Below are positions 7,312-28,040 of a DNA stretch of 35,510 nt, piece after piece. A program made the translations under genes and the position numbers. Below the pieces are notes generated by a model that worked only from the letters and a program-made list of their open reading frames with translations, was not told the origin of the DNA and made no database searches. Position 1 is the first letter of the stretch. Each line of letters starts with the position of its first letter. The stretch comes from Nitrospirota bacterium (GTDB lineage Bacteria > Nitrospirota > Nitrospiria > JACQBW01), in the NCBI GenBank assembly GCA_016178585.1, contig JACOTA010000004.1, forward strand, positions 1 through 35,510. The letters run 5' to 3'.

Positions 7312-9957
7312 TCATCTTTTTTCGATCTCTACATGACCCAGTTTGAAATAAGGGACATCGGTTTCAGGGTCGACCTGGCATTGAATTAAATCCCTTAGAT
7401 TCGGATCTGATAAATGCTGAGGATAAAAGGCCAGGCCGGGGGGATAGGCGGGATCAAATTTAACCCTCACTTCCATTTGACCCAATTCCGATTTTACACG
7501 AACCCTCTCTCCCGCCTGCACCCCTATCTTTTTTCCATCGGCAGGGTTCATGATCAACGACCCGTCAGGATAAAGTTTCATCAACCCATCCGCATGGCGT
7601 GAAAGCTTTCCCGAATGATAAAGAACCGGCCGGATCAACAGGGCCCACTGTTCCGGGGAAGCAGAAGCCGGCTCTTCCATCTGATAACGCTCTTTCAAGG
7701 TTAAGCCAGCCGTTTCTTCAAAATAACTCTTTTTTCTTGTTTCAATTAACTGCCTTTGTTCCGGCCCGACAGGAAGGGCGCGGTAATAATCAGGAATCGC
7801 TTTTTTAATTTCTTTCCGGATGGCATTGACATTTTCATATACCAGGGGGAATCCCGACCGCGTGGAAACGGTTGAAAAAATTTCCCAGTCTGAAAGGCTT
7901 TCTCCGGCCGGCTTAAGGGCCTTCCGGATTCTCTGGGCACGGCCTTCCATATTCGTATAGCTTCCCTCTTTTTCCACGAAACTACAGGCCGGAAAGACCA
8001 CATCGGCCATCGCCATGGTTGAATTCATAAAGAGATCCTGACAGACCAAAAATTCAAGTTTTGAAAATGCTTCCCGGGCGTTTAAAGACGCCGGAAGGCT
8101 GTCGATCGGGTTTTCACCGACGATGTAAAGCATTTTTATTTCACCGCGATTGATTTTTTTAATCATTTCCGGGAGCGTGGCGCCCTTTTGAAAAACCGGG
8201 GTCCCATGCCATAGACCGGAATAACGTTTTTGAGCAGAAGGGTCATTGACCTCCATTAAGCCGGGGAGAAATTCAGGGACACCCCCCATTTCAACTACCC
8301 CTTGCTCATTATTTTCATAACAGAGCGGGTTCAACCCGGAACCCGGCTGGTCTAATTTGCCAGACACCCAGGCAAGATCAATCATGTTTTTGACATTTTG
8401 ATAACCATTTTTCGCTGAGGTCACGCCCGGGCCGAAAACAATGACACCTGGCTGAGTCTGATACAACAAACTGCCTGCTTTTTTATACACGGTTTCGCGG
8501 ATTCCGGTGATTTCCTCAATTTTCTTGAAAGACACGGGGTCTGTGGCCTCTTTTAACTGACGACCATAAGAATGCGCGGCGTAAGGGTTTCCCTCAACCT
8601 GTAAAATAGCTTTAATGAGTCCCAGGATGACCATTCCTTCGGAGCCAGGGCGAGCCTGAAGATGATCGGAAGCGAGTTTGGCCATATTGGTTTTAACGGG
8701 GTCGACGACGATCATTTTCGCACCGCCCTTTCTCACCGCTTTTTTTACGTAGAGAGCTGAAACAGGGTTGGTTTCACTCATATCCGTCCCGATTAACAGA
8801 ATCACCCTGGCCTGGGCCAGCTCTTCATACGAATTCAGCATTCGGTTGAATCCAAACGCTTCCTTAAAAGCCATGACGGTATTCATATGGCCGTATCGGA
8901 CGGTGCTGTCGATATGGGGCGTCCCGATGCCCAACCGCATCCATTTTTGGAAAAGATAGGCCTCTTCATTGGTACAGCGGGCCGAAATCAGCCCGGCGAT
9001 GGCCTGACCGCCGTAGCGGGATTTTATTTCATTTATTTTCTGGACCGTCAGATCAAGGGCTTCATCCCACAAAACGCTGACTAATTTCTTTTCAACTTTA
9101 ATCAAAGGCGCGGTCAGCCTCTCCTTATGATTCAGATAATGGTATCCATAAAACCCTTTGGCGCAGAGGTTCCCTTCGTTCCGCCCGACCCCCCACTCGG
9201 AAGTAACACGCATGACCACGTTGTCAAACGTTTCGAGGGTAATCTGGCAGCCGTCCGCGCAGTGCTGACAAATGCTTTCTGTTTTTTTTAGTTCCCAGGG
9301 ACGGAATTGATACATTGAAAAACGGTTGGTGAGGGCACCCACGGGACAAATCTGAACGCATCCCCCGCAAAAGACACAATCAAGTTCCTGCCGGCCAAAG
9401 GTTGAAATTTCCGATTTTACCCCTCGTTCCACCGAACCCAGGGCTTTTACCTCCATGACTTCATCGCAATACCGGACGCACCGGAGGCAGGAGACGCAAC
9501 GGTTCATCTCTTTTTCAATAAAACCGCCGAAATATTCTTTATTAAAAACTCTTTTTTCTTCCGTAAAACGGCCTTGTTTGCTGTATTCATGGCTTAAATC
9601 CTGGAGATGACACTCACCCCCTTTGTCGCAGATCGGACAATCAAGCGGATGGTTGGAAAGAATAAATTCAATGACGCCGTTTCTCGCCTTAATCACATTG
9701 GGAGAATGGGTTTGAACCACCATCCCTTCGGCCACCGGCATACTGCAGGAGGTCTGAAGCTTCGGGTTTTTTTCGATTTCAACGAGGCACATCCGGCAGT
9801 TGGCATCGGGATCAAGCTGGGGATGATAACAAAAATGAGGGACTTCAATTCCTAATTTTTTTGCGGCGGCAATCAGGTAAGTTCCTTCCTCCACCTGAAG
9901 ATCCTGCCCGTTAATTTTTAAGGAAACCATTTTTTTAGTTTGCGGGTTTGTCGTCAT
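7312..9957 (-). CDS. nuoG: NADH-quinone oxidoreductase subunit G (NuoG)
   Basis: An 881-residue iron-sulfur subunit of the NADH-oxidising module. Ligands in order: [2Fe-2S] C43, C54, C57, C71; N5 H103, C107, C110, C116; N4 from C154/157/160/164 and C194/197/200/204; then C230-x2-C233-x3-C237-x27-C265, the motif for extra cluster N7 that bacteria such as E. coli have and mitochondria lack. The rest is the molybdopterin-oxidoreductase-like domain, which is structural in complex I. ATG 9957 overlaps the nuoF stop (ATGA). An in-frame start at 10002 lies deep inside nuoF and is less likely. Length is typical for long bacterial NuoG. Confidence 0.95.
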   Translation of the reverse strand: MTTNPQTKKMVSLKINGQDLQVEEGTYLIAAAKKLGIEVPHFCYHPQLDPDANCRMCLVEIEKNPKLQTSCSMPVAEGMVVQTHSPNVIKARNGVIEFILSNHPLDCPICDKGGECHLQDLSHEYSKQGRFTEEKRVFNKEYFGGFIEKEMNRCVSCLRCVRYCDEVMEVKALGSVERGVKSEISTFGRQELDCVFCGGCVQICPVGALTNRFSMYQFRPWELKKTESICQHCADGCQITLETFDNVVMRVTSEWGVGRNEGNLCAKGFYGYHYLNHKERLTAPLIKVEKKLVSVLWDEALDLTVQKINEIKSRYGGQAIAGLISARCTNEEAYLFQKWMRLGIGTPHIDSTVRYGHMNTVMAFKEAFGFNRMLNSYEELAQARVILLIGTDMSETNPVSALYVKKAVRKGGAKMIVVDPVKTNMAKLASDHLQARPGSEGMVILGLIKAILQVEGNPYAAHSYGRQLKEATDPVSFKKIEEITGIRETVYKKAGSLLYQTQPGVIVFGPGVTSAKNGYQNVKNMIDLAWVSGKLDQPGSGLNPLCYENNEQGVVEMGGVPEFLPGLMEVNDPSAQKRYSGLWHGTPVFQKGATLPEMIKKINRGEIKMLYIVGENPIDSLPASLNAREAFSKLEFLVCQDLFMNSTMAMADVVFPACSFVEKEGSYTNMEGRAQRIRKALKPAGESLSDWEIFSTVSTRSGFPLVYENVNAIRKEIKKAIPDYYRALPVGPEQRQLIETRKKSYFEETAGLTLKERYQMEEPASASPEQWALLIRPVLYHSGKLSRHADGLMKLYPDGSLIMNPADGKKIGVQAGERVRVKSELGQMEVRVKFDPAYPPGLAFYPQHLSDPNLRDLIQCQVDPETDVPYFKLGHVEIEKR

Positions 9958-11255: not shown

Positions 11256-11741
11256 CTATTTTGCCTTTTGCCTTAAATCGTCTAATATCTGGTCTACCTT
11301 ATTTTTGTTCAAATTTTCGTAATAATCGTCGTTAATCTGCATCATCGGCGCTGTCCCGCATGAAGCCAGACATTCCACTTCAGCAAGCGTAAAAAGTCGA
11401 TCTGGCGTGGTTTCTCCCGATTCGACGCCGAGTTTTTCTTCCAAATAACTGACAAGCTTTTCCGCCCCCATTAAAGCACAGGGAAGCGTTCTGCAGACCT
11501 GAATATGATATTTACCGATCGGTTTCAGGTTATACATCGTGTAAAAAGTGGCCGCTTCATATACCTGTAATGGCGTAATTTCCAGGATATCCGCAACTTC
11601 TTTCATAAGGTCTTCGGTTAAATGTCCCTGGTTCTCTTTTTGGGCGATATTGAGCGCTGGAAGAAGCGCGGACCGTTTTTGTTCCGGAGGATAATGACCC
11701 ATAATTTCCACAATTTGATTCCGGCTGGTTTCCGATATCAT
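11256..11741 (-). CDS. nuoE: NADH-quinone oxidoreductase subunit E (NuoE)
   Basis: A 161-residue thioredoxin-like [2Fe-2S] subunit (cluster N1a). The ligand pattern C-x4-C (VCRTLPC) followed by C-x3-C (ECLASCGTAP) is complete, and the N-terminal helical bundle (LLPALNIAQKENQGHL) is present. AGGGG lies 6-7 nt before ATG 11741. A 126-bp MITE-like element ends 18 nt upstream of the start, leaving the ribosome binding site intact. NuoE works with NuoF and NuoG in the NADH module. Confidence 0.95.
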   Translation of the reverse strand: MISETSRNQIVEIMGHYPPEQKRSALLPALNIAQKENQGHLTEDLMKEVADILEITPLQVYEAATFYTMYNLKPIGKYHIQVCRTLPCALMGAEKLVSYLEEKLGVESGETTPDRLFTLAEVECLASCGTAPMMQINDDYYENLNKNKVDQILDDLRQKAK

Positions 11742-11759
11742 AGTTTCCCCTTCAAAAAA

Positions 11760-11885
11760 CCTGGATGCTTAGAACAGGTTATATACGAGGCGGAACAAGA
11801 AGATGCACCGGAGCGTACAGAGAAGTACGTGAGGATGCGGATTCGCAGTGACAACGCGGTAGATAACCTGTTATCAGCATCCAGG
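11760..11885. mobile_element. 126-bp MITE-like element between nuoD and nuoE
   Basis: The ends form a 23-bp imperfect inverted repeat: CCTGGATGCT-tag-AACAGGTTAT on the left and ATAACCTGTT-atc-AGCATCCAGG on the right. Only the three middle positions fail to pair. The interior is itself partly palindromic around CGTAC-AGAGAA-GTACG. It has no coding capacity. It fills nearly the whole gap: nuoD stops at 11887 and nuoE starts at 11741. It is probably a non-autonomous element moved by a transposase in trans; no target duplication was confirmed. Confidence 0.7.
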
Positions 11886-11886
11886 A

Positions 11887-13140
11887 TCATCTGTCGCATT
11901 CTCCCATGACGATATCATACGTTCCAAAAATCGTAATAATATCCGAGATCATATATCCCCTGGCCATGTAATCAAACGCCCCCATATGGATAAAGGAAGG
12001 GGGACGAATTTTGAGTCGATAGGGCCGGTTCCCTCCGGTGCTATAAATATAGAAGCCTAATTCCCCTTTTGGAACTTCCGTTCCGCAATAAACCTCCCCT
12101 TTCGGCGCATCAAATCCTTTAGAAGCCACCAGAAAGTGATGAATTAAACTTTCCATATCGGACATGACCAGATTTTTTTTCGGGAGAGTCACCATCGGAC
12201 TGCTGGCTAGAATCGGACCTGACGGAAGTTTTTCAAGACATTGTTCAATCATTCGAGCCGATTGAATCATTTCCAGAATTCTAATCCAATACCGGTCGTA
12301 GGTATCGCCGTTTTTCCCTAACGGAACTTCCCAATCCAGCCTGTCATAGACCCCATAAGGCTCAGCCTTCCGGATATCGTAATTGACCCCCGACCCTCGC
12401 AAGGGAGGTCCGGTCAAACCGAAATTAATGGCGTCTTCACCGGAAATCACGGCAACATCCTTTGTGCGGGAAATCCAGATTCGATTATGTTCTAAAAGGG
12501 TATTGTATTCTTTTATTTTTTTAGGAAACTCTTTGATGAATTTTTTCAACCGGTCAATAATTTTTGGGGTTAAATCGCGGTCGATCCCTCCAATCCGGTA
12601 GTAAGTCATCGTTAAACGAGCGCCGCAAAGCTCTTCAAACATATCCAGGATTTCTTCCCGCTCACGGAAGGTGAAGAAAAACACCGTCATGGCGCCGACA
12701 TCGAGCGCCTGGGTTCCAAGCCAAAACAAATGGCCCGAAATCCGCATCATTTCCGCAACCAGGGTCCGGATATATTCTGCCCGTTCCGGAATCTGGAGCT
12801 GTAAAAGCTTTTCAACCGCCCGGACAAAGGCATAATTGTTCGTCATCGAACAGACATAGTCGAGACGATCGGTCATAGGGATAATCTGGTTATAGGTTTC
12901 CAGTTCACAAAGTTTTTCAACGCCGCGATGGAGATAACCCAAATCTGGCGTGGCTTTGACAATTCTTTCACCTTCAAGATCCAGAACCACCCGAAGCACG
13001 CCATGGGTGCTGGGATGTTGGGGTCCCATGTTTAAGAGAAACTCTTCACGGCGGAGGACGGGTTTGGTTTCATGGGGAGCTTCAATCTGCTTCCCGCCAA
13101 TCGCCACGTCTTTGGTTATGTTATCGCCCTTATTAATCAT
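11887..13140 (-). CDS. nuoD: NADH-quinone oxidoreductase subunit D (NuoD)
   Basis: A 417-residue 49-kDa-type subunit that lines the quinone pocket beside cluster N2. Conserved segments are NMGPQHPSTHGVLR (the quinone-headgroup His is in this loop), GYLHRGVEKL, TDRLDYVCSM, the ESLIHHF helix, and the canonical C-terminal DIVMGECDR. Arg72, in GYLHRGVEKL, aligns with the mammalian NDUFS2 arginine that NDUFAF7 dimethylates; a homologue of that enzyme is encoded at 14738. Start is ATG 13140 with GGGAAA upstream. It is separate from nuoC, not fused. The stop is one base from the MITE-like element. Confidence 0.97.
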   Translation of the reverse strand: MINKGDNITKDVAIGGKQIEAPHETKPVLRREEFLLNMGPQHPSTHGVLRVVLDLEGERIVKATPDLGYLHRGVEKLCELETYNQIIPMTDRLDYVCSMTNNYAFVRAVEKLLQLQIPERAEYIRTLVAEMMRISGHLFWLGTQALDVGAMTVFFFTFREREEILDMFEELCGARLTMTYYRIGGIDRDLTPKIIDRLKKFIKEFPKKIKEYNTLLEHNRIWISRTKDVAVISGEDAINFGLTGPPLRGSGVNYDIRKAEPYGVYDRLDWEVPLGKNGDTYDRYWIRILEMIQSARMIEQCLEKLPSGPILASSPMVTLPKKNLVMSDMESLIHHFLVASKGFDAPKGEVYCGTEVPKGELGFYIYSTGGNRPYRLKIRPPSFIHMGAFDYMARGYMISDIITIFGTYDIVMGECDR

Positions 13141-27807: not shown

Positions 27808-28040
27808 CTTTTTTCTCCGCTGATCTCTTTCATCGCCTGTTCAAAAGCGATCCGGTGTTTAAATCCTTTTTTAAGGTATTTCCAGATGGCCTCAATTTTT
27901 AAAAAATCTTCCTTTGAATAATCCCGGGACTCTAAATCCCCCATCGGAATCCGCTTTGGAGAGATATACCCCTTCTGTTCCAGGTAATAGAGTTTGTGCC
28001 GCGGGATTTTCACCTTTTCTAAAATTTCAGATGTTCTCAT
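27804..28040 (-). CDS. Small MerR-type HTH protein
   Basis: A 78-residue protein that is little more than a MerR-like winged helix: RTSEILEKVKIPRHKLYYLE, QKGYISPKRI, then a wing and a last helix (FLKIEAIWKYLKKGFKHRIA). It lacks the long dimerisation helix and effector domain of full MerR regulators. Its stop overlaps the pilM start (ATGA), making it the first gene of the pil operon. It may regulate the operon or serve as a small partner protein; the sequence does not decide. No convincing promoter was found in 28041-28131. Confidence 0.75.
   Translation of the reverse strand: MRTSEILEKVKIPRHKLYYLEQKGYISPKRIPMGDLESRDYSKEDFLKIEAIWKYLKKGFKHRIAFEQAMKEISGEKR

Follow-up and report, generated by a model that had tools for sequence, protein, structure and literature searches.

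We analyzed a 35,510-nucleotide stretch of DNA from a Nitrospirota bacterium (assembly GCA_016178585.1, contig JACOTA010000004.1; hereafter the window). Its minus strand carries a nuo operon in which NCBIfam named nuoA, nuoB, nuoC, nuoD, nuoE, nuoF, nuoG and nuoH, then nuoL and nuoM. A 126-bp inverted-repeat element at 11760–11885 had been noted there in a preliminary description made from the letters alone, and recomputation of its arms and fold confirmed that it is real. It sits, as described, between two genes: the stop codon of nuoD (11887–13140, minus strand) occupies 11887–11889, one base off the element, and on the other side the downstream gene nuoE (11256–11741, minus strand) starts at 11741. 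A presumed nuoE ribosome binding site read by eye (GAAGGGG, 11747–11753, minus strand) lies about nine bases beyond the hairpin foot, and between the two is a run of six T on the minus strand (U in the mRNA; 11754–11759).

The two arms, 11760–11786 and 11859–11885, are 27 nt each and 89% complementary, with 72 nt between them. Folded with short flanks, the plus strand reached −56.2 kcal/mol (z −4.0, equalled by 0 of 200 shuffles) and the minus strand, which has the sense of the nuo mRNA, −53.1 kcal/mol (z −2.7, equalled by 2 of 200); the bare plus strand folded as DNA gave z −7.5. In the plus-strand fold, an outer arm pairs 11760–11769 with 11876–11885 and a second stem pairs 11773–11782 with 11863–11872. 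The centre, previously described as non-pairing, turned out to contain a 6-bp apical stem (GCGTAC/GTACGT; 11813–11818 and 11825–11830) that is conserved in the family. This conserved hairpin, GGAGCGTAC(n)GTACGTGAGGA, lies in a plus-strand core at 11810–11835 delimited by a core pattern search and by alignments. The alignments also showed two conserved plus-strand boxes: AGGCGGAACAAG at 11788–11799, the counterpart of GCAAGGCGGCAAG in the ERIC/RU-1 consensus, and GACAACGCGG at 11850–11859, the counterpart of CCAACGCAGC. On the basis of the inverted repeat, the fold and a family model match at 11758–11888, we designated 11760–11885 an ERIC-like element on the plus strand, which is the strand of the conserved core and antisense to nuo. 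The element had also been described as lacking coding capacity; a 95-aa plus-strand reading frame (11622–11909) does cross it mechanically, but is probably not a gene.

Within the window, the family covariance model matched only at 11758–11888 (125 bits), with no second match up to E 10. Rfam covariance models found nothing in 11500–12200 up to E 5, and at ten loci with family copies they returned only tRNAs and chance-level matches. The element had been called MITE-like, and a genome search for further copies had been set beforehand as the test on which that reading could fail. The search turned up no fewer than 44 members of the family within this genome (hereafter G000) at E≤0.1, using a covariance model (R1) built from 30 copies, with 150 of 289 candidates scored. 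The reading as a dispersed element is thus supported, with further copies in the own genome, in genomes of the same family and across the phylum. BLAST likewise detected relatives of the element in G000, where the exact core occurred 11 times and a reversed control pattern not at all. Across 40 genomes (39 relatives and G000), the core was present in 15, with a maximum of 72 occurrences in one, and the control scored 0 in all. A second model (R2) was built from 96 copies, and neither model contained an enterobacterial sequence. R2 found 68 copies in G002 and 15 in G001, which represent other genera of the same family, and, in a sample of 80 genomes across the phylum, had a match at E≤1e-4 in at least 35, with up to 42 candidates scored per genome. 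A strict form of the pattern hit, among named genomes, two MAGs of Nitrospirae along with three that are filed under Deltaproteobacteria. Copies were mainly intergenic; only 2 of 31 copies in G000 shared more than 40 nt with a predicted ORF. Neither arm type was matched in a plasmid collection, and in the open-licence literature we found no report of ERIC-like elements in Nitrospirota.

To describe the conserved structure, we used an alignment of 30 of 32 dereplicated copies, drawn from 58; two copies of another arm type were excluded, and seven with insertions or odd arms had been excluded earlier. In this alignment, 21 of the 34 base pairs had changed on both sides with pairing kept, and 93.7% of cells were paired. 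None of 500 shuffles reached the observed value on any of five measures, and structures slid along the alignment paired in 24.6–42.8% of cells; these shuffles, by the tool's own warning, do not remove relatedness among the copies. For the copies of G000 alone, in an alignment fitted to the model, 24 of 34 pairs had changed on both sides, and at one pair of the apical stem C-G occurred 18 times and U-A 12 times, a further compensated variant. When the letters of the plus strand were read, G.U pairs outnumbered A.C mismatches by 48 to 10. The excess was kept when structures were predicted with G.U pairs disallowed (32 versus 7), including a structure derived from the minus strand (31 versus 7, in the same direction), and therefore does not arise from the way the structure was derived. 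In the own-genome set the counts were 69 and 20, with 23 of those G.U pairs coming from one column. The plus strand was also the more stable one in 28 of 30 copies. Together with the G.U excess, this indicates that a constraint, or a process that matches the arms to each other, acts on one folded strand. Judged from sequence, the constrained form is one folded strand, of RNA or single-stranded DNA, and not just a pair of double-stranded terminal repeats.

Because the core resembled that of ERIC, we compared real ERIC copies, using five distinct sites from ten loci fetched (two chromosomal, in E. coli, and three plasmid-borne, in Pantoea, Rahnella and E. coli). R1 recovered all five at full length, in the correct position and on the correct strand, with E-values of 8.5e-6, 0.0084, 0.022, 0.048 and 0.13 in 63 kb searched, and its best match in a 2-kb E. 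coli control stretch had 10.7 bits (E 1.3). With R2, the values in 47.5 kb were 2e-6, 0.00025, 0.00037, 0.0009 and 0.0018, and the next match outside known elements scored 11.5 bits (E 0.79); the tool itself describes its covariance-model E-values as rough. A profile that used sequence only (nhmmer) gave no significant match to the five sites (L112, E 0.14; the other four unlisted). R2 also matched the wrong strand of the nuo copy (21.8 bits, E 0.0015), pairing up the arms and skipping the centre, and two further wrong strands at 18.2 and 17.7 bits, which means that scores of 20–25 bits can come from palindromic arms. The ERIC sites, unlike these, were aligned through the core and on the right strand. 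Since wrong strands scored well and the sequence-only profile was weak, we tested the RU-1 consensus separately, in the form printed in PMC2759123. Against 32 copies it scored z 7.0 over dinucleotide shuffles and z 5.7 over pair-preserving shuffles (0 of 500 in each case), and against the nuo copy alone z 3.1 (2 of 500) and z 2.9 (6 of 500). Reverse-complemented or reversed copies scored lower.

The element and ERIC share the boxes GCAAGGCGG, GGAGCkTAC, GTAmGTGA and CAACGCAGC in the same order and spacing. Both are imperfect palindromes that form a long hairpin, of nearly equal length (127 bp for ERIC, 126 bp here), and both occur as many dispersed intergenic copies. They differ at one compensated pair of the apical stem (GCTTAC/GTAAGT in ERIC, GCGTAC/GTACGT here), and the arms are not the same. 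ERIC has TA termini, whereas the nuo copy runs CCTGG..CCAGG without TA ends. The host also differs: ERIC is reported from Enterobacteriaceae and Vibrionaceae in a passage of PMC10969869, a range that does not include Nitrospirota. The sequence comparisons make it very probable that the element is related to ERIC (RU-1/IRU), and it likely represents a branch of ERIC-type repeats in Nitrospirota. It is not filed as ERIC proper, because the nuo copy lacks TA termini and the host lies beyond the reported range; we therefore call it ERIC-like. The element is placed as ERIC is and, by analogy, would also work as ERIC does.

We then examined where copies lie relative to genes, using gene ends from a simple codon-usage gene caller for G000 and for two further relatives, G012 and G016. 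Counts covered 31 placements out of 44 matches in G000, 43 placements in G012 and G016 (excluding one truncated copy and the 'Deltaproteobacteria' loci), and 27 of 30 loci, from 83 matches, in G001 and G002. In G000, 17 of 21 genes converging on the 3′ end of an element stopped within 15 nt of it, mostly at 0–4 nt, as did 25 of 29 in G012 and G016, again mostly at 0–4 nt. Of the G001 and G002 copies, 20 of 27 ended at the stop codon of a frame of at least 100 codons. Between co-directional genes, the element was antisense in 17 cases and sense in 5 in G000, and antisense in 16 and sense in 9 in G012 and G016. Stop codons were found at the 5′ end in 3 of 10 cases in G000 and 1 of 22 in G012 and G016. 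We dropped the stricter statement that the 5′ end never lies at a stop codon: 11 of the 22 upstream genes in G012 and G016 end 25–35 nt before the core-aligned 5′ end, and because this distance equals the length by which that arm type extends on the 5′ side, the real 5′ end there may likewise be flush.

The upstream proteins keep their natural C-terminus in seven of eight informative cases. NuoD, a polyprenyl synthase, an SDR protein, a transketolase half, a GspE-like ATPase, PurH and phosphoglycerate dehydrogenase end within five residues of the profile end; coproporphyrinogen oxidase ends 24 positions short of it, and three more proteins were uninformative. ERIC resembles the element here as well, the converging gene's stop codon lying 0–4 nt from the 3′ end. 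Three of the five real ERIC sites checked have a converging gene, whose stop codon is separated from the end of ERIC by 0, 1 and 4 nt, and a 3′ end flush with converging stop codons could, on these sequences, hold for ERIC in general. Sequence shows the family to have many copies, a conserved core, variable but complementary arms, a preferred folding strand and placement at stop codons. Of the points reported here, the preliminary description had not seen the ERIC relationship, the strand preference or the placement at stop codons.

At the nuoD–nuoE junction itself, G002 carries the element at the same place and in the same orientation, and there, as here, the nuoD stop and nuoE are 145 bp apart. 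G001 has an empty junction of 0 bp, in which TAA is directly followed by ATG. When the G000 and G002 copies were compared over 34 pairs, 25 were unchanged, six had changed on both sides and were still paired, one had changed on one side and was still paired, and two were broken. R2 found no element in the 11 searched of 28 other, unfilled nuoD–nuoE loci of the class. This pattern is compatible with one old insertion that was later lost in G001, and also with two separate insertions at a favoured site. On the reading we prefer, the element would have been mobilized in trans and inserted behind the nuoD stop codon before the genera of G000 and G002 split, and the hairpin would afterwards have been kept or re-corrected. 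Another stop-codon site is filled in three genera (L165, L175 and L195), and the arms there look different; the different arms of the G001 copy at that site suggest recurrent insertion or replacement. Two other relatives showed further arrangements near this junction. In G007, a family member (46 bits; 1198–1391 of L131) lies just upstream of nuoD, which is at 1501, and the nuoD–nuoE gap holds a short, arm-like inverted repeat without the centre. In G008, the junction (L143) holds a different near-perfect hairpin of about 65 nt that R2 did not match.

Past mobility of the family appears very likely. Passages in PMC2229807 and PMC2759123 describe ERIC with TA termini and a TA duplication. By a scripted count over one arm type of G012 and G016, 16 of 21 copies carry TA after the 3′ arm, and 10 of the 21 carry it at each end. 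Together with the terminal inverted repeats and the absence of coding capacity, these features would suit descent as a MITE from an ordinary insertion sequence, such as one targeting TA, with the parent element since lost from the genome. Such an origin is possible but doubtful: no target-site duplication emerged from 33 copies (mean shared word 3.21, versus 3.22 in shuffles, with ends uncertain by a few bases), and it is the centre that is conserved, not the ends. Nor did a small-scale search for an insertion sequence with matching ends find one: the reading frames scanned in three far-spaced arm pairs gave five proteins and no transposase. These pairs, 1.3–2.5 kb apart in G016 and G012, had been candidates for an autonomous element with matching arms and were rejected, all the arms belonging to separate complete elements; between them lie genes for a FAA hydrolase, an aminotransferase and an ATP-grasp ligase, or unclassified frames. 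Movement as a REP/REPIN-type repeat by a RAYT (Y1) transposase would agree with a palindromic, intergenic element that folds as a single strand, and with Y1 proteins in 30 of 40 relatives and four matches in G000. It is nevertheless extremely improbable, and we rejected RAYT/Y1 as the mobilizer for want of a link: G002 has its 68 copies and no PF01797 match, and in G000 no Y1 match fell within the 3-kb loci or the contig positions closely compared. On contig C18, elements at 27987 and 74502 lie several kb from Y1 matches at 43515 and 56554, and on C13, elements at 8085 and 35941 lie several kb from Y1 at 138. The element also has 126 bp against 20–40 bp for REP, as REP is defined in PMC3733652, and its 30-copy alignment shows no conserved GTAG/CGTC end.

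The remaining alternatives concern the nuo operon and the likeness to ERIC. One is that the element is a structured RNA or a regulatory domain conserved in the operon and only looks like a repeat; this would explain why G002 keeps it at the same place with compensatory changes, and why the folding constraint is strand-specific. This reading is very unlikely in view of at least 44 copies beside unrelated genes, of G001 and the 11 searched class loci without the element, and of a constrained strand that is antisense to nuo. The six U that follow the hairpin foot on the mRNA strand could be read as part of an intrinsic terminator or attenuator at the nuoD–nuoE junction, but the copy in G002 has no U run and nuoE, nuoF and nuoG follow downstream in the same operon, which makes this reading highly improbable. 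A terminator scan was empty, with loops of only 3–8 nt allowed, a setting blind to a hairpin this long. Finally, two unrelated families of long hairpins might have converged with no common descent between the element and ERIC; the sequence-only search was not significant, the arms differ wholly and wrong-strand controls do score. Against this stand the four boxes in shared order and spacing, the z-scores of the RU-1 consensus over both kinds of shuffle, the placement at stop codons common to both, and the intermediate apical stems of G000, and we regard convergence as improbable.

We thus favour kinship with ERIC. Extended across phyla, the kinship would make ERIC one branch of an old family of hairpin elements that are recognized and moved as a single folded strand and land at stop codons, leaving proteins intact and giving each transcript a new 3′ hairpin. 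Recognition as a single strand is proposed because of the strand-specific tolerance of G.T/G.U, the conserved tip and the arms that are exchanged yet complementary. We put this wider reading forward tentatively.

The preliminary description had also proposed that the element forms a long hairpin in the nuo mRNA, one that might shift the balance between the quinone and NADH modules. Such a hairpin is indeed predicted on that strand, but it is weaker than the one on the other strand; because it is the less stable strand that is present in the nuo mRNA, the plus-strand constraint provides no evidence for a role there. In the folding model, the hairpin would sit between the nuoD stop and the nuoE start and would end any stop–start coupling like that of G001 (TAA ATG). 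Where ERIC lies at the 3′ end of a Yersinia gene, it destabilizes the upstream transcript via RNase E in an orientation-dependent manner, according to passages in PMC2229807 and PMC10969869. By analogy with Yersinia, the most likely role would be that of an intercistronic boundary for mRNA stability or processing. An effect on nuo expression is plausible; that it would be measurable in the nuo mRNA is conceivable, and we lean somewhat against it.

Several other repeats resemble the element in part. REP, BIME and REPIN sequences are likewise short intergenic palindromes in many copies, and differ in length and in their GTAG/CGTC tag, the element also having no RAYT link. Passages of PMC2229807 and PMC10969869 describe Correia/NEMIS and RUP MITEs as small non-coding inverted-repeat elements able to alter mRNA; in these it is the ends that are conserved, and we set them apart by description, not by sequence. 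The same holds for Chunjie of Geobacter uraniireducens (178–235 bp), which a passage of PMC10969869 presents as a MITE inside an operon, and for the Yersinia repeat YPAL/RU-2, a long enterobacterial palindrome of about 168 bp in a passage of PMC2229807, both compared by description and not by sequence.

Bacterial fingerprinting has drawn on ERIC for decades. The Nitrospirota relatives of this repeat, with tens of copies per genome, supply many more filled and empty sites and a covariance model for searching, and their placement at stop codons is a clear rule that any mechanism of mobilization has to explain. Such repeats need to be annotated before intergenic hairpins of Nitrospirota are read as regulators or terminators.

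Some copies occur in close arrays. In G000, tandem pairs a few bases apart lie at C33:14683 and 14829 and at C32:5021 and 5156. On contig C98 of G012 (L206), three elements lie within 3 kb, where neighbouring genes for a FAA hydrolase and an aminotransferase are each followed by one. Two IMG/VR contigs (L092 and L099) have several family matches each and may for that reason be host DNA or prophage flanks. The starts of contigs C78 and C43 (L014 and L015) have near-identical sequence, which by eye resembles the end of a transposase gene and is likely an assembly break.
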